Of a stretch of 27,810 nucleotides of DNA, positions 5,218 through 27,496 are shown piece by piece. This DNA comes from a virus: positions 1 through 27,810 of the IMG/VR virus record IMGVR_UViG_3300033149_000611; one strand, written 5' to 3'. The notes beneath the pieces were generated by a model that was not told where the DNA came from, did no database searches, and worked only from the letters and a program-made list of their open reading frames with translations. The translations under genes were made by a program, and so were the position numbers. The first letter of the stretch is position 1; each line of letters begins with the position of its first letter.

Positions 5218-6165
5218 TTAACAATGTAGTTTTTCGAAGTTGCCCCCGAATGCGTGTTTAAATTTAATAGAAAATCCGATCTTGGAAAATTGCTTTATGT
5301 ATTCAGGCGTGTAACCGCTTGAAGCTTTTACTTTTAATCTGTCGTGTTTCGTTGGGTTGTTGTTTTGGTAGTTGGTCATTTCTACATAGTCCGCCATCCT
5401 AACTTGAAACTGTACATAGTCCCTTAATTTTTGAGGGTATACGTCGGTTTCTAAGGTATATTCTACCTTTAATATTTTTTTTGTATCCTCTTCGAATCCA
5501 TTGCTGAATAAAGTAGTTTCTTCCTCTAGTCCGTCTTCGTCGTTTCCAAAGATCGCAGCTAACCTCTTGCCGTCAGAATAATTGTCTGGATAGGTAAATT
5601 TGGACTCCCCTACATTACCTCTTCGCCATTCTGCGAAATTACCGCTATTAAAAGATTTTACGTAAACCGTAGTATTTGCCCGTGCATTGGTATAGTCTTG
5701 CACGTTGTATTCAAAATCACAATTAATTAGTACAGGCGTAGAAGGTAGCACACTGGTTGCCTCGGATATAAGCCTATATTTACCAACTCCAAAAGCCACT
5801 CTTATAGCAGTCCATTTAATATCATGAGCAGTTATATAGTTACGATTATCCTTGACCTCAACTCCAAAATCAATGAATTCACCTACATAAGTATCGTCTA
5901 CAATCGTATGCTTGTCTACCCAAGAACCACCCTCGCATTTCTGAATCTTAAATATTGCCGAGGCTATAGAGGTATCGAAATAATCAAACCATGATGTAAC
6001 GTCATTTCTTTTTACGTTGGTAGGGTCTGAATTATCGACAAGTAAGTTGAGTTCAAAACAGCATTCAGGTAATTCTAACTCTGATGCGTCAGGCAGTTCC
6101 GTCGGAGCGTCAGGGTTGCCAGTTATCACATATCCTTGTTTATAAAATGCTTCGCCTCTACTCAT
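5218..6165 (-). CDS. Distal tail / fibre-associated protein candidate (315 aa)
   Basis: A 315-residue, probably beta-rich soluble protein (starts MSRGEAFYKQGYVITGNPDA, ends HAFGGNFEKLHC) with no signal peptide or membrane segment. Aromatic and Asn/Asp-rich strands alternate through the sequence, as in phage structural proteins. It is the last large gene of the tail block, after the fibre and the cysteine-cluster protein, and its ATG overlaps the latter's stop (TAATG). A minor tail or receptor-binding role is likely by position only. It has a Cys pair near residue 36 (PECCFELN), one at about 76, one in the middle and one as the very last residue. No family recognised. Confidence 0.5.
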   Translation of the reverse strand: MSRGEAFYKQGYVITGNPDAPTELPDASELELPECCFELNLLVDNSDPTNVKRNDVTSWFDYFDTSIASAIFKIQKCEGGSWVDKHTIVDDTYVGEFIDFGVEVKDNRNYITAHDIKWTAIRVAFGVGKYRLISEATSVLPSTPVLINCDFEYNVQDYTNARANTTVYVKSFNSGNFAEWRRGNVGESKFTYPDNYSDGKRLAAIFGNDEDGLEEETTLFSNGFEEDTKKILKVEYTLETDVYPQKLRDYVQFQVRMADYVEMTNYQNNNPTKHDRLKVKASSGYTPEYIKQFSKIGFSIKFKHAFGGNFEKLHC

Positions 6166-6512
6166 TATCTTCTAGTGTCTACTAAGTTTATGCTAATGCT
6201 ATTCTTTTCCTGAATTAAATTGATGTAATTCATTATTGGGTCACCCTCGTAAACCTCACCTCTAAATAAAGAAGCTTGATAACTTCCATTACTTAGCAAT
6301 TCCAAAATAACTCCGCATTTATCAGGTCTTAATTCGGTATTCATATTGCCTCGAATATACATGCAATGGTAATCTTTACAGGTTTTTGGTCTAGTATTAT
6401 AAATCCCACAGCCTAACCCCGTACAGTTACTACACATAGTATTTTTAGGCTTGCTTATCTCGGGGATATGGTAAACCTCGCAACATGCTGTACAATCTCC
6501 GCACTCATTCAT
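6165..6512 (-). CDS. YkgJ-family cysteine-cluster protein
   Basis: This 115-residue protein has the CxxCxxCC pattern at Cys4, 7, 10 and 11 (NECGDCTACCEVYHI), then CSNCTGLGCGIYNTRPKTC (27-45), C50 and C66. This matches the YkgJ/UPF0153 zinc- or iron-binding cysteine cluster family, including the typical C-x-I-Y-x-x-R-P-x-x-C. The family is thought to bind a metal centre and includes the N-terminal part of flagellin lysine methylase FliB; its biochemical role in phage is unknown. It lies between the tail fibre gene and a distal tail protein gene with TAATG overlaps on both sides, so it is made together with the fibre. It could modify, fold or add metal to a tail protein (inference). Confidence 0.8.
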   Translation of the reverse strand: MNECGDCTACCEVYHIPEISKPKNTMCSNCTGLGCGIYNTRPKTCKDYHCMYIRGNMNTELRPDKCGVILELLSNGSYQASLFRGEVYEGDPIMNYINLIQEKNSISINLVDTRR

Positions 6513-10903: not shown

Positions 10904-12786
10904 AAGGTTTCTATTGTTTCTATCAAATTAGGGTCATTTAAATAAGGCACAGCCCATTCAATTTCTGAATTCGACGTGTGTATGTTGTGCTTAAATGATA
11001 TCAATTCTGACCTTTCACCGTTAGGGTCAAAGATAATACTATTATTAATTACCTTAACTAAGTCCTCTTTACACACTCTAGTGTTTAACCCTTCAAATAT
11101 TCTGCGTTGATTTCCGAAAGGGAACTGGTCGCTAGGTACGTGGCTTTGGCCTGCGTGGTAAGTTCTGTAAATATACTCCGTGTGCCATTTTTCATCATTA
11201 TCGCTTCTTATGTTGGTCAATCTGGGTATTGATTTTATGTCAAATGAAGCCACTTTGGTAACCGTAAAAAAGTCGTTCTCTATTGTCATCATTCCCTCCC
11301 TTTCTTCTATAATAGTTTCCTCTATAGGAGGGATTGGTGGAGCAGGTAATGGATTGAAAGGTATATCCACACCCAACGCCTTTAACACCTTTAGAACTTT
11401 TCTGATCTTTGGGATAGAGGCGTTTTTTAGATCGTTAGCCTGAATAATAAGGATGCGAACATCATTTATAGGTTCAATATATGCTTTCACCAATCTATCT
11501 GCAAGTATTTCAGGTGGCGTGAATCCTTTTTTTGTGGACGCTTTGGTAAATGGAATAATTACTTCTTGCTTGCCATCTATTAAGTTTTCCACTCCATCTA
11601 CAAGTCTTTTAGTTGTAACTATTGTAGTTGTTCCATTGTAATTCTGATACGTGTTTGTGTCTGCTGAATCTTGCAACATCCTTAACCCATAAAACCCTAT
11701 AATCTCATCTCCATTAGTTCTATGCTCTCGCATCCTTATTAATGGATTCATTCTAAAAGAAGGGTCTGACATAGGGGTTCCAACTCTTTCGATTACTAAT
11801 TCATTATTCGAAGTGATTGTAATAAATGCTCTAAAAGTGTCTTTGGTGTCTTGTAATAGATCAAAGAATGAACCTGTATAGTATCCATTTGCCCTTGTTT
11901 CTTCTGGTACGGTAAAACCAAATGAGGGCAGATTAAAATTAAAACCTCGCGCAGACACTTGATTGTTTTCGCTTTCTGGTGTCTCGAATTTAGCGGGAAT
12001 TATTACGGCGCTAGCTATGAATTCGTCATCAAAAATAGTACTCTTAAAGGTGTATCCTAGCTTTGCACATCCTATCTCAATTAACTGTTTCCACAACATG
12101 CCTGCATGGTACTTTACAGGTTGAATAAGTTGATCTAAAACCGACAGCATAAAAATAATCAGTGTAGCTAAGGTGATTATTACCCAAAAAACGAGCACAA
12201 TTATCTTAAGCACTCCAGCCATAGCACTTAATACACCGCCAATATCAGCTATAACCTTAGCCATTTCCTTAGCCATTACAACTAATTTATCCAAAACAAT
12301 AAAGGCCGTAACAGAGATAATCGCAGCGGCTTTGTAGTCAGGTCTAGAACTAAGCGTGTATGGTACTTGAATATAATCGGCAGTGGTAAAAAATCCCTCT
12401 TTTAATAATTCGGAATAAATCACTGTTTTAGCTCTACGAGAAAGAGAATCATCCTTACCTCTTCGCTCTACCCTCATATTCTCAATAAGCTCCTTTGAAT
12501 AAACTGTTTCGGCTCCATTAGGAAGTAATACACCGTCTAATATGGTTAGTTCTGAACCTTCTTCCTTTCTGGATATAGAATACTTGATACCTTGATAAAT
12601 ACCGTTTTTAGCAATTAGGTCGTTTATTTTCGTGGCTTCATCGTAAGCAAAATCTAATGAATTAACTGTCAGTAAAGGTTGTGCACCTACATTATCTGGG
12701 TCGGGCTTAATTTCTAGCTCAAATTCATTTGCATTAATAGCAGGGTTTACCTCTTGTTCTTCTAGCCTATTTATTATCTCCCTCAT
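10900..12786 (-). CDS. Tail hub-like protein with membrane-type helices (628 aa)
   Basis: Directly follows the tape measure gene (ATGA overlap), the usual place of distal tail/hub proteins in siphoviruses. Residues 1-148 and 225-628 look soluble and structural. Residues about 151-222 are strikingly hydrophobic, with likely membrane helices at 152-171 and 192-218 (KIIVLVFWVIITLATLIIFM) and an apolar Ala/Gly segment between. Near 485 is a proline-rich stretch NPLPAPPIPPIEETIIEE, probably an exposed linker. I infer a hub or tail-tip protein that may insert into the host membrane during DNA delivery. No sequence family was recognised, so the role rests on position and hydrophobicity. Confidence 0.55.
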   Translation of the reverse strand: MREIINRLEEQEVNPAINANEFELEIKPDPDNVGAQPLLTVNSLDFAYDEATKINDLIAKNGIYQGIKYSISRKEEGSELTILDGVLLPNGAETVYSKELIENMRVERRGKDDSLSRRAKTVIYSELLKEGFFTTADYIQVPYTLSSRPDYKAAAIISVTAFIVLDKLVVMAKEMAKVIADIGGVLSAMAGVLKIIVLVFWVIITLATLIIFMLSVLDQLIQPVKYHAGMLWKQLIEIGCAKLGYTFKSTIFDDEFIASAVIIPAKFETPESENNQVSARGFNFNLPSFGFTVPEETRANGYYTGSFFDLLQDTKDTFRAFITITSNNELVIERVGTPMSDPSFRMNPLIRMREHRTNGDEIIGFYGLRMLQDSADTNTYQNYNGTTTIVTTKRLVDGVENLIDGKQEVIIPFTKASTKKGFTPPEILADRLVKAYIEPINDVRILIIQANDLKNASIPKIRKVLKVLKALGVDIPFNPLPAPPIPPIEETIIEEREGMMTIENDFFTVTKVASFDIKSIPRLTNIRSDNDEKWHTEYIYRTYHAGQSHVPSDQFPFGNQRRIFEGLNTRVCKEDLVKVINNSIIFDPNGERSELISFKHNIHTSNSEIEWAVPYLNDPNLIETIETL

Positions 12787-15683
12787 AGCCTAGATCGTTT
12801 ATGTACGGTTTTCTTGGTGTGCTTTCCGAGCGTTGCCAAGGTATAAGGGTTGCCTTTCTTGTCTTTTCCAATAAAGAAACTAGCCTTGCTATCCTTAATC
12901 GCTTTTATCTGCCTGTCTGCGTTTTCGTTGTTATTCTTTATGATAGCATTAAGGTTTATATCTTGAGGTTTAACAGTATTACCCATCTCTAAGCTTTTAA
13001 AGGCGTGTGGTGACATCATTAAGTTGTCTGCTAAATGAACCTGATCCATCAATTCACGTCTCGTTCTCAGTTTTCCTGTCTTAGGGTCGGCTACCTCCTT
13101 TCTGTTATCATGGCTAAGCATTTGTTCGTGTGGATGTGCTTTCATCCAAAAACCGCCTTTATTATCTAAGTTTCCGCCTCTACCTGTATCATCTACACCA
13201 TCATACGCACTTAAAACACTTGCGATACTAGCAATCTCCCCTGTTCTTATTTCGACTATCTTTGCCCTTCTTAATGTCGGATTCTCGGTTTCCTCTGCCC
13301 TAATTGCAGACACCGCCCTTTCTGCATTTATTACTATCTCGCTTATTGCCAAAGCTTTTTGAGCGTTTTTAACTATCTCCGCTGCACTGCTTTCTTCATC
13401 TGCGAATCCTGCGAGAGTGTCTAATACATTTTTAGAAGATTTAATTCTGGCGTCTTGGATTTGCTCACGCTCTGACTGTAACTCCTTGTCGGACGCTAGT
13501 AGTTCTGCGTTCTTTTCCTTGTTAGCATCTATCTCTTCTTGAGCTAGAGCAGCTAAATCATCATTAAGCTTTTCTTGTATTAATAATTCTTCATTAGCTG
13601 TTTCCGCAATAGTATCCTTTTCGAATTGCGCAATTCTTTCTAATTCCGCCCTTCTTGATTCAAAGTCCTTATTTCTGGCGTTTCGTATTCGCCTTATCTT
13701 CTCAACAACGTCGAACTCGTTTAAAATCTCTTCTTCTTGATCTTCACCTCGCAGTTTTTTTATATCAGCAATCAACTTAGCGTTTATCTGTAGCTTTGCA
13801 GCGGCTAGTTCTTGTTCATTCTTAATATTAGCATCTCTCTGAATCCTAAACGATTCTATCTCTCTATCTGCCGCATCGGTTAATAATTCAATCCTTCTTT
13901 CAATTGTTTCCTCTTGATCTTTGGCGATTTGACGCAAGGCCGTAGCCTCCCTTACCAGTGCCATAGCGTTTTTGGTTGCTACTTGAACCTGTAATGCAGA
14001 AAGTTTTTTAATAGTAGTAGCTTGCTTGTCTAGTAAAGATTGGCGTGCTTGCTCTTGCTCTACTATCTTATCTACAATATCGCTTAAAGCCTCTGCGCCT
14101 GCTGCGCTGGACAATGTAAAGTCTGCGGCTTGCTGTACCGCCTCGGCTACTTCTATTTGTCCGTTCTTTATCTTTTCCACAAATTCCAATTGCTCTGCGC
14201 CTAGTTCCAATCGCTCCCTGTCTGCACTAATTGAATCCAGTGCTCCCGCCAATGCTTGTTCCTGCAATTCAACTTGTCTTTCTGCTAGCTCAACCTCTAT
14301 CTCGTTAGCTTCTTTTAATGCCTTAATTCGCTCTTGGTCGGTTCTTAATTTATCCCTACTAATCAGATTTAATTCTTTTATCGCAGTAATGGACGCGGCC
14401 TGTTGTGCTTCGAACAGCTTCTGTTCTCTTGTCAGGGTTTGGGTTAGTTTCCTTAGCTCGATAGCTAACTTTGTTTCTTTTTCTAACTCTGTGGTTATGT
14501 CTTTAAACGCATCTGCGACGCCTCTTACTCCGTCCGCTATCTGGCTAGGTGCCTCTTTAAGGTCTTCAAGTAATGAACTGATAGTGTCCCCTGCGTCGGA
14601 AAAATCACCTTTCAAAGCCTGTCCTGCCGCCTTAAGCACTCGAATAGTTGCTGTAGCGAAAGAAAACAGCCCTTTGAATATATTAGTAAACCCTTCTGCT
14701 GCTGCCGAAAACCTATCAATAAGAACGTCTAACGTCGCAGTTAAGCCTGCTGTTCCTTGGTCTACCTTATCAATTCCACTTTGAATCCTTGTAAGGAATG
14801 CTGCGAAGCTGCCTAATGCAACAAGAACTACCCCGATACCAGATGCAGCAAGAGCTACTTTTAACGCTTTTAACGCTTTTACACCGCCTGTCTGCGCTCT
14901 ATTAAGTGTTCTTTGAGCTAATGTTAATTGGGTAGTTGCTGTTACCTGTTGTTCTTTCGCAACCACGTCGGCCTCTTCTGCTATTACATTCTTTTTTGTA
15001 AGCGCCGCTAATGTGGCCTGAACTGCGTTTAGCTTTCCTAGTACACCCCCAAATAAGCCGCTTGCCTCAGCTGCTTCCTTTATTGAATTCGAATAGTTAC
15101 CGACATTTATTTTTTGCTTCTTTAGTTTGTCGCTATTTTTTTCAATAACCTTATTGTTCTTGTCTAGTTCCTTGTTTATTGCAATTAGTCTTTTACGCCC
15201 TTTCTCTGTGTCTAGATTTAATTTTTCTCGCTCACGCCTTAATTTACGATTCGAAGCCGCAATTCTCTCCAAAGTTCCTGCATTCTTATTGTTAAGAATT
15301 TCAGCATCCTTATTGATCGCGTTTTGCTCTTTAGCTAACCTGTTTAACTGGACGGTTTGCTGTATCTTATCAGAATTGAGTTTTTTTAGTTTCAGTTCTG
15401 CTTTGTCTCTTTCCTTAGCCAACTGAATAGACACTTTTCTAGTGTCGTTCAGGGTTTTAACATTCTTGTCAGTGGTTGTTATTGCTTTATTTAGCTGCTT
15501 AACCTCCTTTATATTAGTAGGGCTCTTGTATTGCTTAATTAGTTTCTTTTGGGCATCCATTAAAGAAACTATGTCTTTTTCTAGCTGTTCGGTGGCTTTG
15601 CTTGCCTCTTCAAGGCTTTTGATATAATCACCCGCAGGGTCTTTTACTGATACGTCCGACTTCTTTATTACATCATTTGCCAT
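12783..15683 (-). CDS. Tape measure protein
   Basis: At 966 residues this is the largest protein of the window and lies just after the tube-region genes. Residues 20-200 are almost continuous charged coiled coil, followed by a hydrophobic stretch at about 275-297 (ALAASGIGVVLVALGSFAAF), a further apolar region near 310-400, and long Glu/Lys/Ala-rich coiled coil from about 400 to 790. The end is basic (HTKKTVHKRSRL). Length, coiled coil and hydrophobic patches are typical of tape measure proteins, which set tail length and help DNA cross the inner membrane. With the usual 0.15 nm per residue, the tail would be about 145 nm. No peptidase motif was seen. The ATG overlaps the previous gene by 11 bases. 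Confidence 0.85.
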   Translation of the reverse strand: MANDVIKKSDVSVKDPAGDYIKSLEEASKATEQLEKDIVSLMDAQKKLIKQYKSPTNIKEVKQLNKAITTTDKNVKTLNDTRKVSIQLAKERDKAELKLKKLNSDKIQQTVQLNRLAKEQNAINKDAEILNNKNAGTLERIAASNRKLRREREKLNLDTEKGRKRLIAINKELDKNNKVIEKNSDKLKKQKINVGNYSNSIKEAAEASGLFGGVLGKLNAVQATLAALTKKNVIAEEADVVAKEQQVTATTQLTLAQRTLNRAQTGGVKALKALKVALAASGIGVVLVALGSFAAFLTRIQSGIDKVDQGTAGLTATLDVLIDRFSAAAEGFTNIFKGLFSFATATIRVLKAAGQALKGDFSDAGDTISSLLEDLKEAPSQIADGVRGVADAFKDITTELEKETKLAIELRKLTQTLTREQKLFEAQQAASITAIKELNLISRDKLRTDQERIKALKEANEIEVELAERQVELQEQALAGALDSISADRERLELGAEQLEFVEKIKNGQIEVAEAVQQAADFTLSSAAGAEALSDIVDKIVEQEQARQSLLDKQATTIKKLSALQVQVATKNAMALVREATALRQIAKDQEETIERRIELLTDAADREIESFRIQRDANIKNEQELAAAKLQINAKLIADIKKLRGEDQEEEILNEFDVVEKIRRIRNARNKDFESRRAELERIAQFEKDTIAETANEELLIQEKLNDDLAALAQEEIDANKEKNAELLASDKELQSEREQIQDARIKSSKNVLDTLAGFADEESSAAEIVKNAQKALAISEIVINAERAVSAIRAEETENPTLRRAKIVEIRTGEIASIASVLSAYDGVDDTGRGGNLDNKGGFWMKAHPHEQMLSHDNRKEVADPKTGKLRTRRELMDQVHLADNLMMSPHAFKSLEMGNTVKPQDINLNAIIKNNNENADRQIKAIKDSKASFFIGKDKKGNPYTLATLGKHTKKTVHKRSRL

Positions 15684-16206
15684 TGCTTACCGTCTTTTTA
15701 AAGTAGTTGATAGCAGTGTAAAAGTCTTCTACGCTGTCTTTCCTTAGATTTATATCTATGTCGGCCTTTTGAAGGATAAATTTAGTTTCTGAAATACTGG
15801 CTGGTTCCTCGTTTTGGGTCAATGAAGAAAGTTCGCCTTGTGCTAATTCTAGTCGCAGCTTATCCATGTTAGTTTGACTTTTAGCGTAGTCTATTTTGAT
15901 CAGCGCCACCTTTGCCAATGCCCTGAAATACTCCTTATTTAAAGTATCGAATTTTGTTATTTCCTCATTTCTAATACTATCCCAAGTGTCTAGGCAGTAC
16001 CTAATAAGTTTGTTTGGCGGGTCTTGTATTTTGGATTTTAGCAGTAAAAGAATGTTTCCTGTCTCTCTTATTTCCTGCCAATTATTTATTATTAACGTCC
16101 TAAGCGAATCGTACAGCTCAACATCAGGTTTAATGCTATACGGGAGCGACTTTTTACGCTGCCATTTTCTTTTTAATAAGTGGTACAATCTTTTCGCGTA
16201 TCGCAT
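15673..16206 (-). CDS. Tail assembly chaperone candidate (177 aa)
   Basis: ATG at 16206-16204 (MRYAKRLYHLLKRKWQRK) to TGA at 15673. It overlaps the end of the 161-residue gene by 53 bases and the start of the tape measure gene by 11. A pair of overlapping genes just before the tape measure is the hallmark of tail assembly chaperones (lambda G and GT type). The overlap contains an A-rich stretch (TTATTAAAAAGAAAATGG); joining the two frames would need a +1 or -2 shift, and no canonical -1 slippery heptamer lies in the needed frame, so separate initiation is at least as likely. The protein is helical and charged, with one Cys and no membrane segment. No family recognised. Confidence 0.5.
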   Translation of the reverse strand: MRYAKRLYHLLKRKWQRKKSLPYSIKPDVELYDSLRTLIINNWQEIRETGNILLLLKSKIQDPPNKLIRYCLDTWDSIRNEEITKFDTLNKEYFRALAKVALIKIDYAKSQTNMDKLRLELAQGELSSLTQNEEPASISETKFILQKADIDINLRKDSVEDFYTAINYFKKTVSNGK

Positions 16207-16639
16207 CAATAATTAATTGTAAGTTTTCGTCAGTCCATCCAACTATTCCTTTTCCAAAGTCATCAAAAAGGTTAGTGTCATCTCTGTTCGGATTGGCTGT
16301 TATTTTCATTAAAAAGGCGTTTCCTCCTGTAACAATTACGAAGGTGCTGTAGAATTTGCCTGTGTCTTTTAGGGTTATATGGTCGAACCTTTGTCCTTTA
16401 TCCTTCTTGCCTTGAAAACTAGAGGTTCCTTCAATGGTTGTTCCTGCGTAATCTCCTAAAGAGACACTAAAAGAATCAACCCCTTTCTCAAATAATTGGG
16501 AAGTGGGTTGACCTTCTGTGTTTAATTCAATTGCAAACTGCTGTAGTTCTTTTTCAGACACTATCTCCTGAAAGATGACATCCATATTAGCAGCCTTTTT
16601 GAACTTGTCGAGACGTTTTTTTACTCGACCTAAGCCCAT
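16154..16639 (-). CDS. Small tail-region protein upstream of tape measure (161 aa)
   Basis: I choose ATG at 16639-16637 (MGLGRVKKRLDKFKKAANMD), which overlaps the stop of the 61-residue gene as TAATG, the same coupling seen at many junctions here. The longer frame from 16693 would overlap that gene by 55 bases. The protein has a basic N-terminus, a beta-rich middle with TLKDTGKFYSTFVIVTGGNA, and a helical basic end (IREKIVPLIKKKMAA). It stands between tube candidate and tape measure. It may be a tail completion protein or the first member of a chaperone pair. No family recognised. Confidence 0.55.
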   Translation of the reverse strand: MGLGRVKKRLDKFKKAANMDVIFQEIVSEKELQQFAIELNTEGQPTSQLFEKGVDSFSVSLGDYAGTTIEGTSSFQGKKDKGQRFDHITLKDTGKFYSTFVIVTGGNAFLMKITANPNRDDTNLFDDFGKGIVGWTDENLQLIIDAIREKIVPLIKKKMAA

Positions 16640-16824
16640 TACTTGCTTTTGTGAATCTCTTCCCAAGCTTTGGAAGCGTCGAAACGTCCCCATTTGCCCC
16701 TTCCTTTAGCAGCCTTACTCTTTGCTTCGTAAGTCTTAATAAAGTCGGTCTTTTTAAAACCCTTCAATCCTGCTATGCTGAATTCAATATCTTGAATAAC
16801 AACATGTGTTTTTTTATCACTCAT
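16639..16824 (-). CDS. Small basic tail-region protein (61 aa)
   Basis: A 61-residue protein (starts MSDKKTHVVIQDIEFSIAGL) with a beta-like N-terminal half and a Lys/Gly-rich basic second half (KAAKGRGKWGRFD). Both ends share overlaps with neighbours: TAATG with the tube candidate upstream and TAATG with the 161-residue gene downstream. Its fixed place after the tube gene suggests a tail assembly or structural role. No family recognised. Confidence 0.5.
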   Translation of the reverse strand: MSDKKTHVVIQDIEFSIAGLKGFKKTDFIKTYEAKSKAAKGRGKWGRFDASKAWEEIHKSK

Positions 16825-17780
16825 TATGCAGGTATGATTGTAGTTTCAGACGGGAATCTGTTTAATGATAAAGGTTTCTTTACATTTAAGATAGGGTCTA
16901 CGTAAACAACCTCACCAACGTCTTGAGATGCGAATGTAGCATCATAACCGCCACTTACGGCAGGGTCAATAGTTAAAGTAGCAAAAGCCACAGCCCCGTC
17001 ATCGTCGATATTGTATAGTTGCAAATCAGAGTCCGTAAATACGTCTAATCCCTTAGTGCTTCTGTTTTTAGCAGAACCATAATCTAAAGTAGTTACGAAT
17101 TTCATAGAGGTTTGCGTAATAGCTGTTATCTTAATATTGACATCTCTCAAAGGCTCAATGTCTAAGAAAGAATAATCTGTTAAATCAGATGCAGCCACGT
17201 AGTCCACTTTATCCCATCCTGAACCTAATTCCAAATTGAATTGTACAGTGTATTTATTGGTAGCTGTAAAGTCGTTTGGAGCAGGAAGAATTACGAATGA
17301 ATTCTTAGCAATCAAAAGGCCTCCGAATAAATCGCCAGTTTCGCACTTGCCAAGCAAGTTGCCATCTGTGTCAATTAAAAAAGCCATCAAATCAAGACAA
17401 TCAACACCTTTCCATTTAGCTACCGACTTGTATATGTCATTGTCTCTAAATTCGAACATCATAGAAGCAACGCCATCTCTCACGTTGTCAATATCTCCAT
17501 TTGCCGCTTCATCTGTTACTGGTTCAGCTTGAGCAGGTGTATACGCTTTAATATTAGGAATTATGATATATCTGTTTGCGTCATCTTCTGCGCAGTAAAA
17601 ACCTTCAATGTAGGCTTGATCCCAATCAACGGATAAATCCATAAAATTGTCTGTACCGCCTGATTTTTTTCGCTGCGCAATCACAACCGCGTATGGTGCG
17701 CCGAGTTTTGTTAAGCATCCCGGTTGTCCGAAATTTTGAGGGCTACCCTCGCACGAACACGGGCTTATAGTTGTTGCCAT
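16824..17780 (-). CDS. Major tail tube protein candidate (318 aa)
   Basis: A 318-residue, soluble, acidic protein rich in beta-type sequence, placed four genes before the tape measure, as expected for the tube subunit. The N-terminus contains a small Cys cluster (MATTISPCSCEGS and PGCLTKLG) that is unusual for tube proteins. The middle (about 150-260) has alternating strands such as KYTVQFNLELGSGW. It has a leader of about 32 bases after its own TAACTTTG octamer (17820-17813), which fits a gene needing high expression. The main alternative is another major virion or decoration protein; the family was not recognised from sequence alone. Confidence 0.55.
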   Translation of the reverse strand: MATTISPCSCEGSPQNFGQPGCLTKLGAPYAVVIAQRKKSGGTDNFMDLSVDWDQAYIEGFYCAEDDANRYIIIPNIKAYTPAQAEPVTDEAANGDIDNVRDGVASMMFEFRDNDIYKSVAKWKGVDCLDLMAFLIDTDGNLLGKCETGDLFGGLLIAKNSFVILPAPNDFTATNKYTVQFNLELGSGWDKVDYVAASDLTDYSFLDIEPLRDVNIKITAITQTSMKFVTTLDYGSAKNRSTKGLDVFTDSDLQLYNIDDDGAVAFATLTIDPAVSGGYDATFASQDVGEVVYVDPILNVKKPLSLNRFPSETTIIPA

Positions 17781-17842: not shown

Positions 17843-18067
17843 TTACGCCTCGTCTGGTGGTTGTCCGTTCTCATCCATATAGTCCCAAAGCTCTTTCAAA
17901 CTGCCGTACATCTTTACATTTTCACCTGTCATGTCTCTAGATGTTTGAATAATTGCAACGTATTCAACTTCATTGCTAGAATTGAGTCTAGGCAGTTCAA
18001 TTATAAGCTCAACGCTTTCGTCCATGTCAACATCTAGTGCGCCTGTTATGATTCCGTACTCGCTCAT
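17843..18067 (-). CDS. Small acidic neck/tail-region protein (74 aa)
   Basis: I choose ATG at 18067 (MSEYGIITGALDVDMDESVE) because it overlaps the stop of the SprB-repeat gene as ATGA; a longer frame from 18154 lies entirely inside that gene for its extra 29 residues and looks like a shadow. The 74-residue product is very acidic, ends DYMDENGQPPDEA, and has no membrane segment. It stands between a large virion protein and the tube candidate and may be a head-tail joining or assembly protein. No family recognised. Confidence 0.5.
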   Translation of the reverse strand: MSEYGIITGALDVDMDESVELIIELPRLNSSNEVEYVAIIQTSRDMTGENVKMYGSLKELWDYMDENGQPPDEA

Positions 18068-19746
18068 TCCGTCGTTCTTGTTACAAATCGTATTGAACCA
18101 TCTACATAGCCCGAAAGTGTACCTGTAGTTCCTGAACCTGCCGAATCCGTACACGTTGCGCTATCGTCCGCCTCGTTCATTTTATACATTATAGCATTGG
18201 CTGCTCCACCCACTTCTGTAGTTGCTGTTGATGGATCGTCATACATATTTGTAGCTTGAGCATCTGTTGCGCCCATTCCGTCATTAATGTAAACATTGTC
18301 CATATAACCACCCATTACAAAACCACCATTACTAAAGGCGCCTATCCTTCCTACCCTCATTTGTCCTGAATCTGTCCATGTAGCAGTAGCATCCACGTTA
18401 TCTATCTTAACCGTTACAACATTTGAAATTCTCCTGATAAGCACATAGTGAGTAGTATCTACACTCATTGCAGGGATAGTGAATGTATTAACTGATCCGC
18501 TATGATTTATTACTAGCTGCGTGGTAGATAAAAACCTCACTGACCTACTAGAACCACCACTACACAAGTAAGGCGAAGACGCTACCTCTGTTCTATGCAC
18601 TTCTGCCGCTATTGTATAGTCAATACCTGCGCCTATTACTCTTTGTGTAAAATCAACCCACTGATTAACCCTATTAAAGAATAGCCATTTCAAATTTGAG
18701 TTAGGGACAAATACTGAACTTGCTTCCGCACATGTTCCGCCTACGCCAAGATCAACAACTGACACACCGATAGTTCCGATAGGTAAGTTTGTAGCAGGAT
18801 TGGTAGTTTGTCCTCCTTGCCATTTTATGCTTACAGCCCCTATGTTTCCGCTAAAGTTAACCGTAGCCGTCCCTTCTTCTAGTTCTGTTGTCGTGCCTGT
18901 TGATACAACACTGTCAATAATTAAATTACATACAGGCGGAGGGTCTCCGCCTTCGACTACCCCACTTCCTTGAGCTGTGCAATTTAGCGTGTTGTCGTCA
19001 GTTACTACAACACTATAAGTCCCAGCAGTTAATCCCGTGATAGGATTTGAAGTTTGACCATTAGACCAAGCGTAGGATAAATTCCCTTGATCACCTGTAA
19101 TAACAGCGGTTGCGGTTCCGTCATCAGCGCCCTCCATTGATTCAGGAGTCGTCTCTACTCTATCTACCTTAACTGTACATAGACTAGTAGCGTACTCATC
19201 AGTACAAGTGTACGAAAACTTAACATCCATGTCAAACCTAACCACATTGTATGGCTGATGGTCATCGCCATTTTTCTTTATTTCCTCCGTGTCAAATCCG
19301 CTATAAACATCATCTATACCTCTCGCTGTTTCGCCTACCGTAAACCTAGCATCTAAATTCCTGCTAACAGCCTTTATATCGTTTATAAGTTCTTCATCAA
19401 ACCTTCTAGGGGAATTGGGGTATAGTTTTTTAAGATCAGCCTGAAATATAGCGCTTATTGTTGCTGTTGATAATCCCTCGTCCTCATCGCCTATATTGGA
19501 AACTAAAAAGAACGATGTTACAGCAAACCCATCATTCATTAGAACGCCTTTATAATCGTTTTCCGAGGCGAAGTCTTTGGGCGTTATATTGTTATTACCC
19601 CTAGGGTCGATAAGCTTATAGGCTCTTGGGTAACTCTCGTAATCCGACCAACCTCTGTCATCAATAAGTCCGTTATAAAGGATTGTTTGCCACCTGTCAA
19701 CAAGTTTATCTACTCCTGTCGGGTTGTCTTTCCTTTTTAATGCCAT
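18064..19746 (-). CDS. Virion protein with SprB-like repeats and LamG-like C-terminal domain
   Basis: A 560-residue protein with three parts. Residues 1-180 look like a phage structural domain (head or neck). Residues about 190-264 form an SprB-type repeat, with EGADDGTATAVITGDQGNLS and YAWSNGQTSNPITGLTAGTY as its typical core (D-G-x-A-x-V ... Y-x-W-S-N-G-Q-T-x-x-x-I-x-G-L-x-A-G-T-Y) and a closing Cys. Residues about 272-347 are a second, diverged repeat (IKWQGGQTTNPATNLPIGTI). Residues 350-560 look like a concanavalin/LamG-type beta sandwich (DYTIAAEVHRT, HYVLIRRISNVVTVKIDN, GRIGAFSNGGFVMGGYMDNV). SprB repeats are known from Bacteroidota gliding adhesins. The protein probably decorates the virion and binds carbohydrate or the host surface. 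Repeat calls are firm; the lectin call is moderate. Confidence 0.75.
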   Translation of the reverse strand: MALKRKDNPTGVDKLVDRWQTILYNGLIDDRGWSDYESYPRAYKLIDPRGNNNITPKDFASENDYKGVLMNDGFAVTSFFLVSNIGDEDEGLSTATISAIFQADLKKLYPNSPRRFDEELINDIKAVSRNLDARFTVGETARGIDDVYSGFDTEEIKKNGDDHQPYNVVRFDMDVKFSYTCTDEYATSLCTVKVDRVETTPESMEGADDGTATAVITGDQGNLSYAWSNGQTSNPITGLTAGTYSVVVTDDNTLNCTAQGSGVVEGGDPPPVCNLIIDSVVSTGTTTELEEGTATVNFSGNIGAVSIKWQGGQTTNPATNLPIGTIGVSVVDLGVGGTCAEASSVFVPNSNLKWLFFNRVNQWVDFTQRVIGAGIDYTIAAEVHRTEVASSPYLCSGGSSRSVRFLSTTQLVINHSGSVNTFTIPAMSVDTTHYVLIRRISNVVTVKIDNVDATATWTDSGQMRVGRIGAFSNGGFVMGGYMDNVYINDGMGATDAQATNMYDDPSTATTEVGGAANAIMYKMNEADDSATCTDSAGSGTTGTLSGYVDGSIRFVTRTTE

Positions 19747-20822
19747 TAACCAAGAGTTTCAACAAATATTTCTTCGCCAAAATACCCCTCCCTCAACTTG
19801 TCTATTTCATCCCGAACCGTTTCAATAGACCTTTTAAGTTGCGCCTTAATCCCAACCTTATGAACTCTTCCATCATTGAATCCCTCAACCTCCAAGCGCA
19901 TCTTATCTAACATAGCTGCCGAAATCCTTTCGTTTCTATTCACTCTAATAGAAGCAAATATTTCTGAAAGAAAACTTACCTGCATGTCTAATTGAATAGC
20001 TCTTGCAAACATAGATTCGTTTTGAATCATTAAATCAGTGAAATCTTCATATACTGTTATGTCAGGATTCAGCCCTGTTGTCTCGCTCAATCCATCCTCA
20101 TCGTCAAGGTCGAAAAGCGTATTCGTGCTATGCCCTGCTACCTTAATCCTTGTAATACACAAGTCAGTTATCAAACTCTCGATGTCTGCGTTATTGTATT
20201 CTCGCTTGTAAGGAACTAGGTCGTTTATATCTACGTAATTAGTAAGATACCCTAAATAATAATCTCCTTTATACAAACCTCCTGAATTATCAACTGCCCA
20301 ATCTAAAACATACTCTTCATGGTCGGTTGAAATAGTTATTACCTGTGATTGTATCGGTGCCTTTTGGGAAGTATTAAATAGCAATAACTCTATGTCACCA
20401 GTGCCTTCAAAATCCAAAAGAACTCTTTTAATCTGAAAAGCAATATTTTTTTTACTTGACACTTGAATACGATATCCAACAAATCCGTCAGGTAAAGTTT
20501 CTGTGTCTATTTTGTTTGTGGCGTTTTTATATAACACCTGTCTATCTAGGTGGTCAACTCTATTAAATACAGCATTTCCAACACTGACTATGCTTTCCTG
20601 CTGCTTTATTTTTAGCCATGCGTTTAAATCTGTTTCGCTTATGGCTTGATAATCTTGGGAATCAATTATCGTTTCGGCTTTTACTAGTGGATTATCGGTT
20701 ACAAAGTATCCCGATCTTGAGCCTTGATTGTCTGTATTTATTTTTTGGTAATCAGGATTGTAGGGTTGGCGGATACCCACCAACCCGTACAATTTATCTG
20801 ATATGATTGTAGGATTTAACAT
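19746..20822 (-). CDS. Head-tail connector / virion structural protein candidate (358 aa)
   Basis: A 358-residue soluble protein directly after the major capsid gene (13-base gap). The first 250 residues are mixed alpha/beta (starts MLNPTIISDKLYGLVGIRQP); the last 90 are helical with charged residues (LKRSIETVRDEIDKLREGYF). One Cys. It could be a neck or connector protein or a second capsid-associated protein; no family was recognised, so the function is by position only. Its stop overlaps the start of the SprB-repeat gene (TAATG), linking their expression. Confidence 0.5.
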   Translation of the reverse strand: MLNPTIISDKLYGLVGIRQPYNPDYQKINTDNQGSRSGYFVTDNPLVKAETIIDSQDYQAISETDLNAWLKIKQQESIVSVGNAVFNRVDHLDRQVLYKNATNKIDTETLPDGFVGYRIQVSSKKNIAFQIKRVLLDFEGTGDIELLLFNTSQKAPIQSQVITISTDHEEYVLDWAVDNSGGLYKGDYYLGYLTNYVDINDLVPYKREYNNADIESLITDLCITRIKVAGHSTNTLFDLDDEDGLSETTGLNPDITVYEDFTDLMIQNESMFARAIQLDMQVSFLSEIFASIRVNRNERISAAMLDKMRLEVEGFNDGRVHKVGIKAQLKRSIETVRDEIDKLREGYFGEEIFVETLG

Positions 20823-20835
20823 TTAATCCTGTCTA

Positions 20836-21855
20836 CTAAACTAAAGCAAACGCTTGAAAAGTAGATTCGTTAGCAACCGATAAAGGCGCTTTGTCGAACG
20901 TTAGATCAATGGAAATCTCATGTTGTGTTTGAACATCTTGAGTATATCCATTTGTAGCTGTTCCGTCGAATCGAGCCTCGTAAGAGTGAGTAGCATAAGT
21001 TAATCCGTCTACTGGATTGATTAATGTGCCGTACTTATTAACGCTAGTAGTGATTCCTTGTCTGTTTTGAACTGGAATCCAGTCGGCTACACCATAAGTC
21101 CCGAAAGGCGCTGCAATCCAGAAACCTTTGGTAACAGATAAGGCTGCTGCTTTAGCGTCCATCTCAACAGAGTGAATAAATGTCATCCCTGAAAATTGGA
21201 AAGACAAGTTTTCACTATTTGAACTACCTTGGTTAGCTTGATACTGGAACTTGTTAAAAGAAACAGTGTCACAGTATACTACAAACTGACCTCTAGTGTA
21301 CTTATTAGAAACCATCACAGATTTAGTAATCTGAATTGATCTGTTTCCATTAGCTGCCTCTGTAATGTCGTATTTATATCCAACACCATCAAAAGCACCT
21401 TCACCCGAAGCATCCGTATTAACTTGCGATCTTTCGTTAAAGATAAAATCTGTCGAAACTACTTCGATCCCTTCCGCAAAGTTAGCTACAACGTTTTCGA
21501 TCTCATTCATAAACAACTCCTCTGCATTAAAGATGTTGTTATCAGCTAACTTAAGACTGTCGGTAAATACATCGTGTCTAGTAACCCATGAAGGAGTTAG
21601 TACGCCTGAATCTCCGATCGTGCCCGTATGATCGTGAGAACGTCCAGTTCCTAGCGATCTAGTTGATCTTAACTTGTAATATGCTTCTGTTGGTCGATCT
21701 TCTCTTGTTCTATCAACCTTTAATTCAAACATTCTATTTGATTGAACTATTGATCTAAAAACCGCAGGGTCTCTAAATCTCTTTTCAGGTGAAGCCATTA
21801 ATTCGTTAAGCTTTACCTGTGCTTTTATCCAATTACTTGGAACGTAATTTGCCAT
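20836..21855 (-). CDS. Major capsid protein
   Basis: A 339-residue soluble protein starting MANYVPSNWIKAQVKLNELM, following the scaffold candidate and the small-gene cassette and preceding the connector-type genes; this is the expected place of the major capsid protein, and the length is right. The N-terminal 100 residues are charged and contain an Arg-rich stretch (RSTRSLGTGRSHDHTGTIGD); the rest is mixed alpha/beta without signal peptide. It is preceded by a strong terminator for the cassette, then by a promoter-like TAAATTTG octamer and a stem-loop near the predicted transcript start, which fits high independent expression. I did not identify a named capsid family by sequence; the call is by order, size and regulation. 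Confidence 0.7.
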   Translation of the reverse strand: MANYVPSNWIKAQVKLNELMASPEKRFRDPAVFRSIVQSNRMFELKVDRTREDRPTEAYYKLRSTRSLGTGRSHDHTGTIGDSGVLTPSWVTRHDVFTDSLKLADNNIFNAEELFMNEIENVVANFAEGIEVVSTDFIFNERSQVNTDASGEGAFDGVGYKYDITEAANGNRSIQITKSVMVSNKYTRGQFVVYCDTVSFNKFQYQANQGSSNSENLSFQFSGMTFIHSVEMDAKAAALSVTKGFWIAAPFGTYGVADWIPVQNRQGITTSVNKYGTLINPVDGLTYATHSYEARFDGTATNGYTQDVQTQHEISIDLTFDKAPLSVANESTFQAFALV

Positions 21856-23358: not shown

Positions 23359-24162
23359 TTACAGGGTCAATGAGCCCTCGGAAACTGCTTTTGTGGTTGC
23401 TTTGTTGTAATCTTCCGAACCAACGTTTTTACCATCAGCTTCCCATTGCTTATTGAAAGCGTCTAGCGTGCCAGTCATCGGAGGGGTACCGTTGCCTTCT
23501 CCTCTTCCGCCTTCCGCGCCTTTTAAATAAGGCTTAACAAAGTCAGAAGTAAATGAGTCTACCGAAATAGGCTGCATTGTTTTCGTGTCCTTCATTACAT
23601 CTCCGTTTTGCTTGACAATCGTTTTGCCCTCTTCAATATCAAAGTCGTACCCTTGTGCTTTGGCCTCCGACATTATAGCCGAGTGACTAATAATAGTTTC
23701 TGCCTTGATGGATTTAGAGAAATCGCTAGAAATGTCTCTTTGCCTTTCCTTAACCTGTACGCCCTGCTTGAATTGATCGAATTCGCCCTGTAGGGTTTCG
23801 TTATTCTTTATCAAGGCGTCGTTATCTTTTTTGAGCTCCTGTATTTTCTTGTCAGGTTCAATCTTAGCCTCACTAAGCACTGATTCTTTAAAGGCTTCTA
23901 TGAACTTGTCAGGGTCTTTTCTTCCTTCGAATTCAAGCCCTAGCTTTTCTTTCATTGATTTTAAAACCATTTCGTGACCGAGCTTATTGCCTTCACTCAA
24001 CTTTGCCTCATCTCTAGACTTTAGTTCGTCTTCTGTGAATCGTTGTAATTGAGGTATTTCCAAGGTCACTTCTTCTTCTTTAGTTATTGCTTCACCAAGC
24101 GTACCTTTCTCTATACCGAGAACTACTTCGATTGCTTCTATGCTATCGTTATTAATTGCCAT
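23359..24162 (-). CDS. Capsid scaffolding protein candidate
   Basis: A 267-residue, highly charged, soluble protein between the portal region and the major capsid gene, the normal place of the scaffold. Residues about 100-140 (KKIQELKKDNDALIKNNETL) are a clear coiled coil; 58-100 are helical; the C-terminal third is less ordered and Gly-rich near 215-225 (GAEGGRGEGNGTPP). No serine-protease motif was seen, so it appears to be a scaffold without fused protease. The start lies 3 bases after the stop of the previous gene. It is followed by a terminator, so scaffold and capsid are not on one transcript unless readthrough occurs. Confidence 0.65.
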   Translation of the reverse strand: MAINNDSIEAIEVVLGIEKGTLGEAITKEEEVTLEIPQLQRFTEDELKSRDEAKLSEGNKLGHEMVLKSMKEKLGLEFEGRKDPDKFIEAFKESVLSEAKIEPDKKIQELKKDNDALIKNNETLQGEFDQFKQGVQVKERQRDISSDFSKSIKAETIISHSAIMSEAKAQGYDFDIEEGKTIVKQNGDVMKDTKTMQPISVDSFTSDFVKPYLKGAEGGRGEGNGTPPMTGTLDAFNKQWEADGKNVGSEDYNKATTKAVSEGSLTL

Positions 24163-24165
24163 AAT

Positions 24166-24591
24166 TTATTCTATTAAATCGTTATAAATTTTTAATGCTC
24201 CTTTTCGTTTTTCTCCTTTAAAGAAGATTTCTAGCTCATTGTCAGACATTTCCTTGCAGTACTCTTCTAGGTCGTCTACATTTACCTTTCTTGAACTTGG
24301 GGCGTCTGCCTTAACCCCTATAGCCATATTAGCAAGGGCGCTCCCCGCTGCTGCTCTAGCTAAATCGTCCTTATCGTGTTCGGATTTCTTAGCCAATAAA
24401 GCGGCTCTTGCTTCCTCTGTTTTCTTGTCGTCTATCTCGTATACTACACCTGTAGACTCCCATTCTCTAGTGGATTCTATGGCGTGCCTTTCTTCAATAA
24501 GGCAATCTTTACGATCTAGTTTTTTGCTTCCTTTGTCAAACTTGCCATTGTGAATGGTCAGCTTGTATTTATTCGCTACTACTAGTGTCAT
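24166..24591 (-). CDS. Small head-region protein (141 aa)
   Basis: A 141-residue, charged, soluble protein whose start overlaps the portal gene end by 23 bases. N-terminal 60 residues are beta-like (MTLVVANKYKLTIHNGKFDK); the middle is an Ala-rich helix (about 60-95); the C-terminus reads NELEIFFKGEKRKGALKIYN and looks like a small helical domain. It lies between portal and scaffold, so a head assembly or decoration role is likely. No family recognised. Confidence 0.5.
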   Translation of the reverse strand: MTLVVANKYKLTIHNGKFDKGSKKLDRKDCLIEERHAIESTREWESTGVVYEIDDKKTEEARAALLAKKSEHDKDDLARAAAGSALANMAIGVKADAPSSRKVNVDDLEEYCKEMSDNELEIFFKGEKRKGALKIYNDLIE

Positions 24592-26185
24592 CTATTTGTA
24601 AATTTAATTTATCAAATTCGGCGGTAAACTCTTCTTCTAGCTTTTTCTTTTCCTTATCAAGGTCTAGGCTGTCCAATGATTCCCACCAATCCACAAAAAA
24701 GGCTTTCTTTCTTGCTTCTTTTGAGCCGAATATACTGTTCACATCAATAATTGACATGTGTAAGTAAGGTTCTAGCTCTGCTTTTAACAGCTCCTTTCTA
24801 AGCCAAGAAGGATCACCCTTATACTTGGCTGTTATAAATTCGTTTAGCATTCTATCAAGCACAACAAAGGGCGCTCCGCTTGTCTTGCTTTCTTCGTATT
24901 TCTTCAACAATGCGTCAGGACTTTCAATTATAAACCTCTTGCCTAGTGATACATGGCTAACTGGCTCGTCTTTAGGTTTTGCAGGTAGCCAAAAATTAGC
25001 TAAATATTCAACGATCTTCCAAGTAACATATTCCGCTGCCTCCGAATACTTGGTCAATTTATTGATTCTAGGCTGTTGATCGATAAATTTACCTGTAGCA
25101 GTATCATTAGAACCCTCCTCTGTTTGCGTTCCCCAATGAGTTAACTCTGCTAATCTCTCAAGTATCTTGAGTTCATCGTTCATCGTGCTCCACGTCGCAA
25201 GATCAGGAGAGATGTAGCCTGCTAAATCGGGCGCTAATTTAACATCGTCTTTTTTAGGTGTTGGAATAGTTACAGCGTCCGTAACATCTTTCTTTTGATA
25301 AAACCCTTTCCCGTCACATTCTTTGCATTTACCTTCACCAGTCTTTCCTGTTCCTGTGCACTGCCTGCACTGCGAAACATAACGCCAAAATATAGGGAAG
25401 CCGTGTAGCTTTTTAAATAAAGTCTTAATTGACTGGTCTCTAGCGTACTCCTTCGATAGTTCAACGATCTTCTGAATAGGTGGTATCCTAACGGGTTTAA
25501 TTATGTGCTCTAGATCGGATATGACAATACTAGGAACCTGCCCGAATGGATGCTCAAACGTTTTGTCTTCAACCACAGAATAAGCCCCTCCATCCTCACG
25601 TATAATCCAGTCTTTTTCATCGTCTACTAATCTCCATAGTTTTACTCCGCTCTCAAGTATTTCAGGCTCAAACAAAAGCCATTCTAATTGCTGTCCGTCC
25701 GTTTCGTAATTTCTTACTGAATGAATTGACTTGTAGGTAGGATAAGCTGATCTTTCAGGCTCGGTAGTATATTCAATAAATATAAGCCCGTTTGGGTCTG
25801 TGTGATAAAGAGGCATCCATTTATTCTCTACAAACTTAGTTATACTTTTATTGTCAGAGGCTTGGGATAAGCGAGAAGTAAATTCAGTCAGTTCACTTCC
25901 TTCTAGTTCGAATTTAATAGAACCACCAGTAGCAGAAAATACATTATCTGTAGGCTGTAATAATCTTTCGTAAAAATCAACAACAGAACGGCTATACTTC
26001 TTTCGCACCTCGGCTTTTTCCTTGCTTTCTAAGTGCTCTATTTTGTTTATTAACTCTTCGGGAAACCCCTCGCCTTCCACAAGAGCCATTAATTCTTTAT
26101 TCTGCTCTCTCGCAAACTTAATTCTCGGCGTTAATTTTCGGTTTTCCTCGACGATTAATAACGCCTGATCTTCGTTGAATATCAT
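24569..26185 (-). CDS. Portal protein with a zinc-ribbon-like insert
   Basis: A 538-residue protein directly after the large terminase, the usual position of the portal, with the expected length and mixed alpha/beta composition. The region near 75-90 (LLQPTDNVFSATGG) and the long helical C-terminus (about 340-520) fit portal wing and stem/crown regions in a general way. Unusually, residues 271-295 carry CRQCTGTGKTGEGKCKECDG, that is C273-x-x-C276 ... C287-x-x-C290 with DnaJ-type C-x-x-C-x-G-x-G knuckles, so a bound zinc ion is likely. It is followed by a Lys-rich segment. The gene has its own TAACTTTG octamer 16 bases before the ATG. Portal call is by order and size. Confidence 0.75.
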   Translation of the reverse strand: MIFNEDQALLIVEENRKLTPRIKFAREQNKELMALVEGEGFPEELINKIEHLESKEKAEVRKKYSRSVVDFYERLLQPTDNVFSATGGSIKFELEGSELTEFTSRLSQASDNKSITKFVENKWMPLYHTDPNGLIFIEYTTEPERSAYPTYKSIHSVRNYETDGQQLEWLLFEPEILESGVKLWRLVDDEKDWIIREDGGAYSVVEDKTFEHPFGQVPSIVISDLEHIIKPVRIPPIQKIVELSKEYARDQSIKTLFKKLHGFPIFWRYVSQCRQCTGTGKTGEGKCKECDGKGFYQKKDVTDAVTIPTPKKDDVKLAPDLAGYISPDLATWSTMNDELKILERLAELTHWGTQTEEGSNDTATGKFIDQQPRINKLTKYSEAAEYVTWKIVEYLANFWLPAKPKDEPVSHVSLGKRFIIESPDALLKKYEESKTSGAPFVVLDRMLNEFITAKYKGDPSWLRKELLKAELEPYLHMSIIDVNSIFGSKEARKKAFFVDWWESLDSLDLDKEKKKLEEEFTAEFDKLNLQIDDTSSSE

Positions 26186-26227: not shown

Positions 26228-27496
26228 TTATTCCTCCCATTCATCAGGAGATCGCCCTATATTCTCCTTAACCTTATCTTTTGATATTATAGCAACCTTC
26301 CCGTCTTGATCTATATTGGCCTGCTTAACTTGTTCTAACTCCTCAACTATCTTCTCTTTTACCTCTTCATCATGACATATTTCATACAACTCTTTGCTGC
26401 ATATTTTCTTGGCCATCATGAAACTACACTGACTCTTTAGATTGTTGTAATTTTCATTATTCACAGCCTTTGAGTTATTCACAAAACCTTCGCAGTCCAA
26501 TATATCAACAACGCCACCACCCACGCCGTCTTCATCGGCTACTGTCCTGCTCATTGGCACCTCATGCTTATTAGCCAATTCCCGTATAGCTTCCGCGCTT
26601 TCAGTAACCTTACTAACCTTCATTTCCTTACGCTCTATAATTACATATCCATGCCAAACACGTATTACCGTGCTATCCCTGCCTTTCCTAGCTATGTCCG
26701 CGGTAATATACTTGTGCCCTTCTTTTTTTACATGTTGATTAGTGAAATAGTCATTGCATGAGTTAAAATCTATCAACACGGAAGGGTCATCGTCATACTC
26801 CCAATTACCATAAAGAAGTCTTTCTCGTTCATTTTTAGTTAATGTCCTTTTTAAATTATCAATATATCCATCAGGAAGCATTTTATTGTCAGTAGGAAGC
26901 GCCTGAATAAATTTCCTGTAAGATGGCAATGTATTATTAGCGTGAGACTTGTAATAATCTTTGTATAGATAGTTTTTACTCGGATTACAGGTTTGTAACA
27001 ACTTTCCTGTTAAATCATAAATGTCATTCTTCCATCTTCCGATTGATGCAGCTAGATTGTTCTTAGCAGCAACCTCGAAGTCTCCCGCTTCTTCTATCCA
27101 TCCCCTAGTCATCTGCATAGAGCCAAACCTCATATACTTAGGATCACTAGGCATATACTTAGCCTCTATAAGAAATACTTTACTTTCGTTATGCAATTCA
27201 AAGAAATTATCCTTGCCGTCAAATCGATAGTATCTCTTATCCAAACCCCAATGCTCAAAAACTTCATAAACCGTTGGGGTTGTGTATTTCCTTAAATCTG
27301 TTAGCTTCTTTCTTGCTATAAAGTAATGCGTATTAGGATACATTAACGCATCCCCAAATATTAAAGAGGCGCCTGTATACGACTTAGCCGACCCTTTAGA
27401 GCCTCCGTAGGCTATGTCTGTCGTAATGTTGTCTGCCCAATAGATACAGCACTGCTTTTGTTTTTCATTATTATGGGTGTCAAAAGATATTTTCAC
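26228..27496 (-). CDS. terL: Terminase large subunit
   Basis: A 422-residue packaging motor. The N-terminal ATPase has Walker A GGSKGSAKS (31-39), the Walker B region RGWIEEAGDF (131-140) with the acidic pair E135/E136, and a coupling motif QTCNPS (168-173). The C-terminal nuclease has Asp267 in ITADIARKGRDS, acidic residues in VADEDGVGGGVV (319-330), and the last acidic site in RSPDEWEE at the very end (415-422). It cuts concatemeric DNA and pumps it through the portal. The start is GTG at 27496-27494, overlapping the small subunit's TGA as GTGA; the frame has a stop 9 bases upstream, so no earlier start exists. The protein ends just after the last catalytic motif, shorter than many relatives, which continue with an A-D-A-type helix. 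Confidence 0.95.
   Translation of the reverse strand: MKISFDTHNNEKQKQCCIYWADNITTDIAYGGSKGSAKSYTGASLIFGDALMYPNTHYFIARKKLTDLRKYTTPTVYEVFEHWGLDKRYYRFDGKDNFFELHNESKVFLIEAKYMPSDPKYMRFGSMQMTRGWIEEAGDFEVAAKNNLAASIGRWKNDIYDLTGKLLQTCNPSKNYLYKDYYKSHANNTLPSYRKFIQALPTDNKMLPDGYIDNLKRTLTKNERERLLYGNWEYDDDPSVLIDFNSCNDYFTNQHVKKEGHKYITADIARKGRDSTVIRVWHGYVIIERKEMKVSKVTESAEAIRELANKHEVPMSRTVADEDGVGGGVVDILDCEGFVNNSKAVNNENYNNLKSQCSFMMAKKICSKELYEICHDEEVKEKIVEELEQVKQANIDQDGKVAIISKDKVKENIGRSPDEWEE

Follow-up and report, generated by a model that had tools for sequence, protein, structure and literature searches.

A siphovirus tail terminator with a swappable, probably adhesive arm at the neck

What is a protein with surface-adhesin repeats doing among the head and neck genes of a phage? 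The question is raised by an ORF at positions 18064-19746 of a 27,810-base stretch of viral DNA, a whole IMG/VR record that we call the window. Encoded on the minus strand and opening with ATG, it runs without interruption for 560 residues. A preliminary description had read its product as a virion protein that joins a phage structural N-terminus to two SprB-type repeats, one clear and one diverged, and to a LamG/concanavalin-like C-terminus, and had proposed that the phage took the repeats from its host for loose binding to cells or polysaccharide.

Gene order and the N-terminal domain

The larger ORFs of the window lie mostly on the minus strand, and read in that direction they follow the order of a head-neck-tail block that is the same in related phages:

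26228-27496, minus-direction order: large terminase, first
24569-26185, minus-direction order: portal, after the terminase and followed by a 141-aa protein
23359-24162, minus-direction order: scaffold-like protein, after the 141-aa protein; small genes and then the capsid gene follow
20836-21855, minus strand: major capsid protein
19746-20822, minus strand: adaptor/head-completion protein, directly upstream of the terminator gene
18064-19746, minus strand: whole gene for the tail terminator with its probably adhesive C-terminal extension (560 aa)
17843-18067, minus strand: small ORF (74 aa), whose ATG overlaps the terminator stop as ATGA
16824-17780, minus strand: putative tail tube protein, from position and homologues in relatives
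16154-16693, minus strand: tail protein (phrog_6195)
12783-15683, minus strand: putative tape measure protein, from position, length and weak homology to its counterpart in the relative L011
about 5.2-10.7 kb, end of the minus-direction order: tip/fibre-like genes

This annotated order bears out the earlier placement of the gene among the head and neck genes rather than beside the fibres. The small ORF that follows it has a conserved position and is present in several relatives. Between the fibre-like genes, positions 6165-6512 encode a small Cys-rich protein of 115 aa (phrog_9155).

The structural N-terminus of the preliminary description can now be specified as a tail terminator. In tblastn searches, residues 3-127 matched a gene of Pseudanabaena phage Pan5 that is annotated as tail terminator (E 4e-10). 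They also matched genes without annotation that occupy the equivalent position in phages of Polaribacter, Cellulophaga, Elizabethkingia and Bacteroides; all these products measure 177 to 211 aa. A family profile that includes the window domain (profile A1) matched the PDB entry 9wwa_h, "terminator protein," with an E value of 5.7e-43, a figure to be read with the closer kin of 9wwa_h that the profile holds; the window protein alone matched the same entry with an E value of 0.0054. The AlphaFold model of residues 1-184 has block pLDDT values mostly between 75 and 96, and fold comparison placed lambda gpU at the top (3fzb; Z 10.2, rmsd 2.6 over 118 residues), with P74-26, T5 p142, Mu, Sf14, R4C and further neck/terminator entries in the other top rows. 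The gene also occupies the terminator position, in the order capsid, adaptor, window gene, tail tube. By sequence, fold and gene order, residues 1-184 are a gpU-type tail terminator.

Proteins of this kind assemble into hexameric rings, which close the tail tube where it joins the head (PMC11784142). The window domain resembles members of the gpU family (lambda gpU, T5 p142, Pan5 and PDB 9wwa) in fold, gene position and length; these proteins are bare, whereas the window protein adds 376 residues with surface-type domains.

Domains of the C-terminal extension

The protein is laid out as follows:

19195-19746, minus strand: tail terminator domain (gpU type), residues 1-184, from tblastn, profile, AF2 and fold comparison
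18937-19179, minus strand: SprB-type repeat 1, residues 190-270 (Pfam core 19051-19131; Cys190/Cys256)
18712-18930, minus strand: SprB-type repeat 2, diverged, residues 273-345 (Pfam core 18805-18876; Cys273/Cys339)
18271-18639, minus strand: supported LamG_3/concanavalin A-like domain core, residues about 370-492, from a purpose-built profile

An HMM search against the SprB family, which the preliminary description had proposed, matched two stretches of the window protein to PF13573 (E 1.4e-6) at 28.3 bits, just over the Pfam cut-off of 28. Taken alone, the repeat 1 core scored 24.6 bits (E 7.8e-7) and the repeat 2 core was weak (15.2 bits, E 6.6e-4). Aligned with each other, the two repeats reached a score of 120 over 75 columns, which none of 2,000 shuffles attained (best 65), and each contains a pair of Cys residues with an equal spacing of 66 residues (190-256 and 273-339). 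The self-alignment and the shared spacing argue that both repeats are real, and the claim of one clear and one diverged repeat thus stands.

According to Pfam, SprB repeats are present in surface adhesins. The window protein shares the repeat sequence (PF13573) with the SprB-type gliding adhesins of Bacteroidota but is a phage protein with only two repeats and without their T9SS sorting domain or cell-surface architecture; a Pfam scan of the window protein found neither a T9SS sorting domain nor any further family. We therefore rejected the possibility that it is itself an SprB-like gliding adhesin, as no sorting domain was found and it begins with a phage terminator domain. The fusion to a terminator inside a syntenic head-neck-tail block likewise ruled out that the contig carries a cellular adhesin gene, and a frameshift or fusion artefact was excluded by the single open frame, the junction at the native C-terminus and the same arrangement in relatives.

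Uptake of the SprB module from the host fared less well. The GC3 of the repeats (0.31 and 0.26) does not exceed the value for the terminator part (0.38), so composition gives no pointer to recent import, and no SprB repeat was found in 41 related viral contigs and 6 cultured phages. A host origin of the module is plausible. The only other phage with SprB in these searches is a huge one: the 642-kb uncultured phage genome LR756502.1 has a 1,675-aa ORF (515422-518520) with 14 SprB matches.

The C-terminal region gave no match to Laminin_G_3 (PF13385) or any other Pfam family at E values up to 10, no significant match in Pfam, PHROGs, NCBIfam or PDB sequences, and no close relatives in viral contigs. 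An AF2 run of this region without relatives had a pLDDT of 34 and is uninformative about a jelly-roll fold. Close relatives of the full protein were likewise not found in viral and genome contigs; as the extension has no close homologue, prediction did not confirm its fold. We built profiles from phage LamG_3 domains of cyanophages, other phages and relatives of the window phage, those members that were tested being LamG_3 in Pfam. A 17-member set contained S-WAM1, the top tblastn match of the C-terminal domain (E 0.7); as the query itself had led to S-WAM1, we removed this sequence, which did not change the outcome. The remaining 16-member profile scored 25.9 bits against residues of about 371 to 491, compared with 10.9 bits for the best of 2,000 shuffles, and two smaller subsets scored 15.7 and 23.9 bits, each above every shuffle. 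Earlier profiles built from 3, 5 or 9 mixed sequences gave no match or no clear one, the C-terminal domain not exceeding the best shuffle, and pairwise alignments with the LamG proteins that relatives carry mostly scored no better than shuffled sequence. As the match came after trials of more than one profile, we take a LamG identity as supported, not proven; assignment of the C-terminus to the LamG/concanavalin A-like group is supported at the superfamily level.

The earlier observation of SprB repeats and a LamG-like end on a neck-region ORF is thus confirmed, the LamG-like end being supported by the purpose-built profile where Pfam misses it. As a whole, the preliminary reading holds for a neck-region virion protein with SprB repeats, a lectin-like end and a plausibly adhesive character; uptake from the host stays a plausible proposal.

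Bare and extended terminators in related phages

Using the capsid and adaptor proteins as baits, we recovered about 40 viral contigs. These contigs, six cultured phages and the window together yielded 39 complete terminators after removal of duplicates. The terminator is bare (169 to 211 aa) in 32 of the 39 and extended in 7, including the window, and all extensions are attached at the native C-terminus of the terminator. They are of three unrelated kinds. SprB repeats with a LamG-like domain occur in the window only. An Lcl_C-type extension is found in four phages (L011, L012, L013 and L035), with 26 to 48% identity among them; two of the four match Lcl_C, below the cut-off. InlB-type repeats occur in L055 and in Rhodobacteraceae phage MD05, which adds a GDSL/SGNH hydrolase after the repeat. 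The adaptor keeps 50 to 54% identity in relatives with bare and with extended terminators alike.

The junction can be located by comparison with a bare relative, L015 (36% identical), which stops at a Cys aligned with Cys181, at the start of the window extension. On a tree of capsid proteins, the sister of the window is L018, which has a bare terminator of 178 aa (support 99/97). The extended or bare state requires at least three gains or losses on this tree, and a clade made up of the four Lcl_C-type phages plus the window was rejected (p-AU 2e-5). The arm is therefore a swappable module, with other modules or none at the same junction in relatives, which makes the neck look like a place where these phages can exchange parts for binding cells or their sugar coats.

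Two relatives have further genes of note. In L015, two additional genes (L015:6568-8447; 325 and 300 aa, no Pfam match) separate the bare terminator from the tail tube gene and perhaps encode a separate neck appendage. The phage of L018 has a LamG_3 domain in a 1,011-aa ORF (L064, record G008) well downstream of its bare terminator; a 704-aa part of this protein gave no blastp match to the window.

A possible second host-contact device at the neck

We consider it likely that the window protein is a siphovirus tail terminator with a swappable adhesive arm at the neck, its hexameric state, outward projection and binding of carbohydrate or cells being the inferred parts. Residues 1-184 would assemble, as a hexamer like others of the family, into a ring that closes the tail tube and joins it to the adaptor and head, and a flexible arm would start from the native C-terminus of each terminator domain. 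The two SprB-type repeats may serve as a spacer or adhesin stalk and the LamG/concanavalin A-like domain as the binding head. Six arms would then project outward at the head-tail junction and give weak, multivalent binding to the host surface or exopolysaccharide, aiding adsorption, and specific receptor recognition would be left to the tail-tip fibres. The outward direction is suggested by size: a channel of roughly 35 Angstrom has been reported for one siphophage tail (PMC13033339), and a folded extension of 376 residues per subunit would hardly fit within it. Counting against an outward arm, a C-terminal tag of the phage T5 terminator was suggested to fold into the lumen (PMC11784142).

The arm might instead be structural and strengthen the junction of head and tail or the first rings of the tail, like the extra domains of some myophage terminators that touch the sheath. 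Some larger terminators do have extra domains with structural roles (PMC11784142), and extended terminators of myophages and injection systems turned up in our fold search. Such a role is unlikely, since the modules are non-homologous among close relatives while the adaptor stays conserved, most relatives do without any extension, and surface-adhesin, lectin-like and hydrolase domains suit outward contact more than a fixed structural one. That bare terminators work in most relatives, and that SprB occurs in the window alone among the related genomes, would also fit a functionless fusion tolerated at a free C-terminus. We regard a neutral passenger as very unlikely, because the genome is compact and the 376-aa extension in it is an uninterrupted reading frame, four related phages keep extensions that have diverged to 26 to 48% identity, and the capsid tree implies several gains or losses.

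An adhesive arm need not bind the host cell. It could attach to an environmental matrix, such as algal or bacterial exopolysaccharide or particles, and hold virions near their hosts. This is possible rather than probable; the LamG-type domain and the occurrence of SprB repeats in surface adhesins would suit it, and adherence to mucus has been proposed for Ig-like domains (PMC6867891). An arm that contacts the host remains our preferred reading. More broadly, we lean towards the view that the terminator ring is a general docking platform in an uncultivated siphovirus lineage, probably of Bacteroidota, to which adhesin repeats, lectin-like heads and hydrolases would have been repeatedly added and from which they would have been stripped, which would turn the neck into a second device for host contact, and a fast-evolving one. 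Carbohydrate binding is not universal among LamG and SprB domains.

Among devices for adhesion at the phage neck, those of lactococcal phages are known best. The neck passage structure (NPS) of the 936 and P335 groups is a non-essential adhesion device with a conserved N-terminus of about 180 residues and interchangeable carbohydrate-binding C-termini; carbohydrate-binding modules are found among its tips, and weak binding to host cells was seen for one of these domains (PMC6669499). The NPS is a hotspot of domain exchange (PMC10684548), and models give its BppU-like N-terminus a collar of its own at the portal/adaptor without settling how it is attached (PMC10747895). The window lineage likewise pairs a fixed N-terminus with exchanged C-terminal modules at the neck, but its platform is the tail terminator, within an essential ring, and its N-terminus is not BppU-like. 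Accessory beta-sandwich domains that aid weak binding are also fused to virion proteins as Ig-like decorations (on tail tube, capsid, baseplate, fibre and Hoc proteins); these use Big_1, Big_2, I-set or FN3 domains, whereas the window protein uses SprB and LamG. Tail terminators are absent from the five classes of phage protein for which a review lists Ig-like domains (PMC9022992). We found no report of an adhesive extension on a siphophage tail terminator in the open-access literature, a search that leaves subscription papers outside its scope and in which absence is not proof.

Unlike in the NPS, the anchor of the neck device is evident from the sequence of the window phage as the terminator itself, which would give a defined six-copy site and a simple fusion point for adhesive or enzymatic modules. 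The window also offers an example, open to testing, of adhesin and lectin domains placed at the neck; the phages concerned probably infect Bacteroidota, for which little is understood about contact with the receptor. That the host is a member of the Bacteroidota is probable from the SprB repeats and the related phages; a search for relatives of the capsid protein in bacterial genomes found none and gave no host link. Two sequence-linked relatives have hosts outside this phylum: Pan5, a phage of a cyanobacterium, and MD05, a Rhodobacteraceae phage by its record name. The MD05 terminator gene (L008:8497-11244, RPMD05_78) is annotated as "InlB-like" and encodes the terminator, the InlB-type repeat, the GDSL/SGNH hydrolase and another region at the C-terminal end, a fusion that could possibly place a polysaccharide esterase on the neck.
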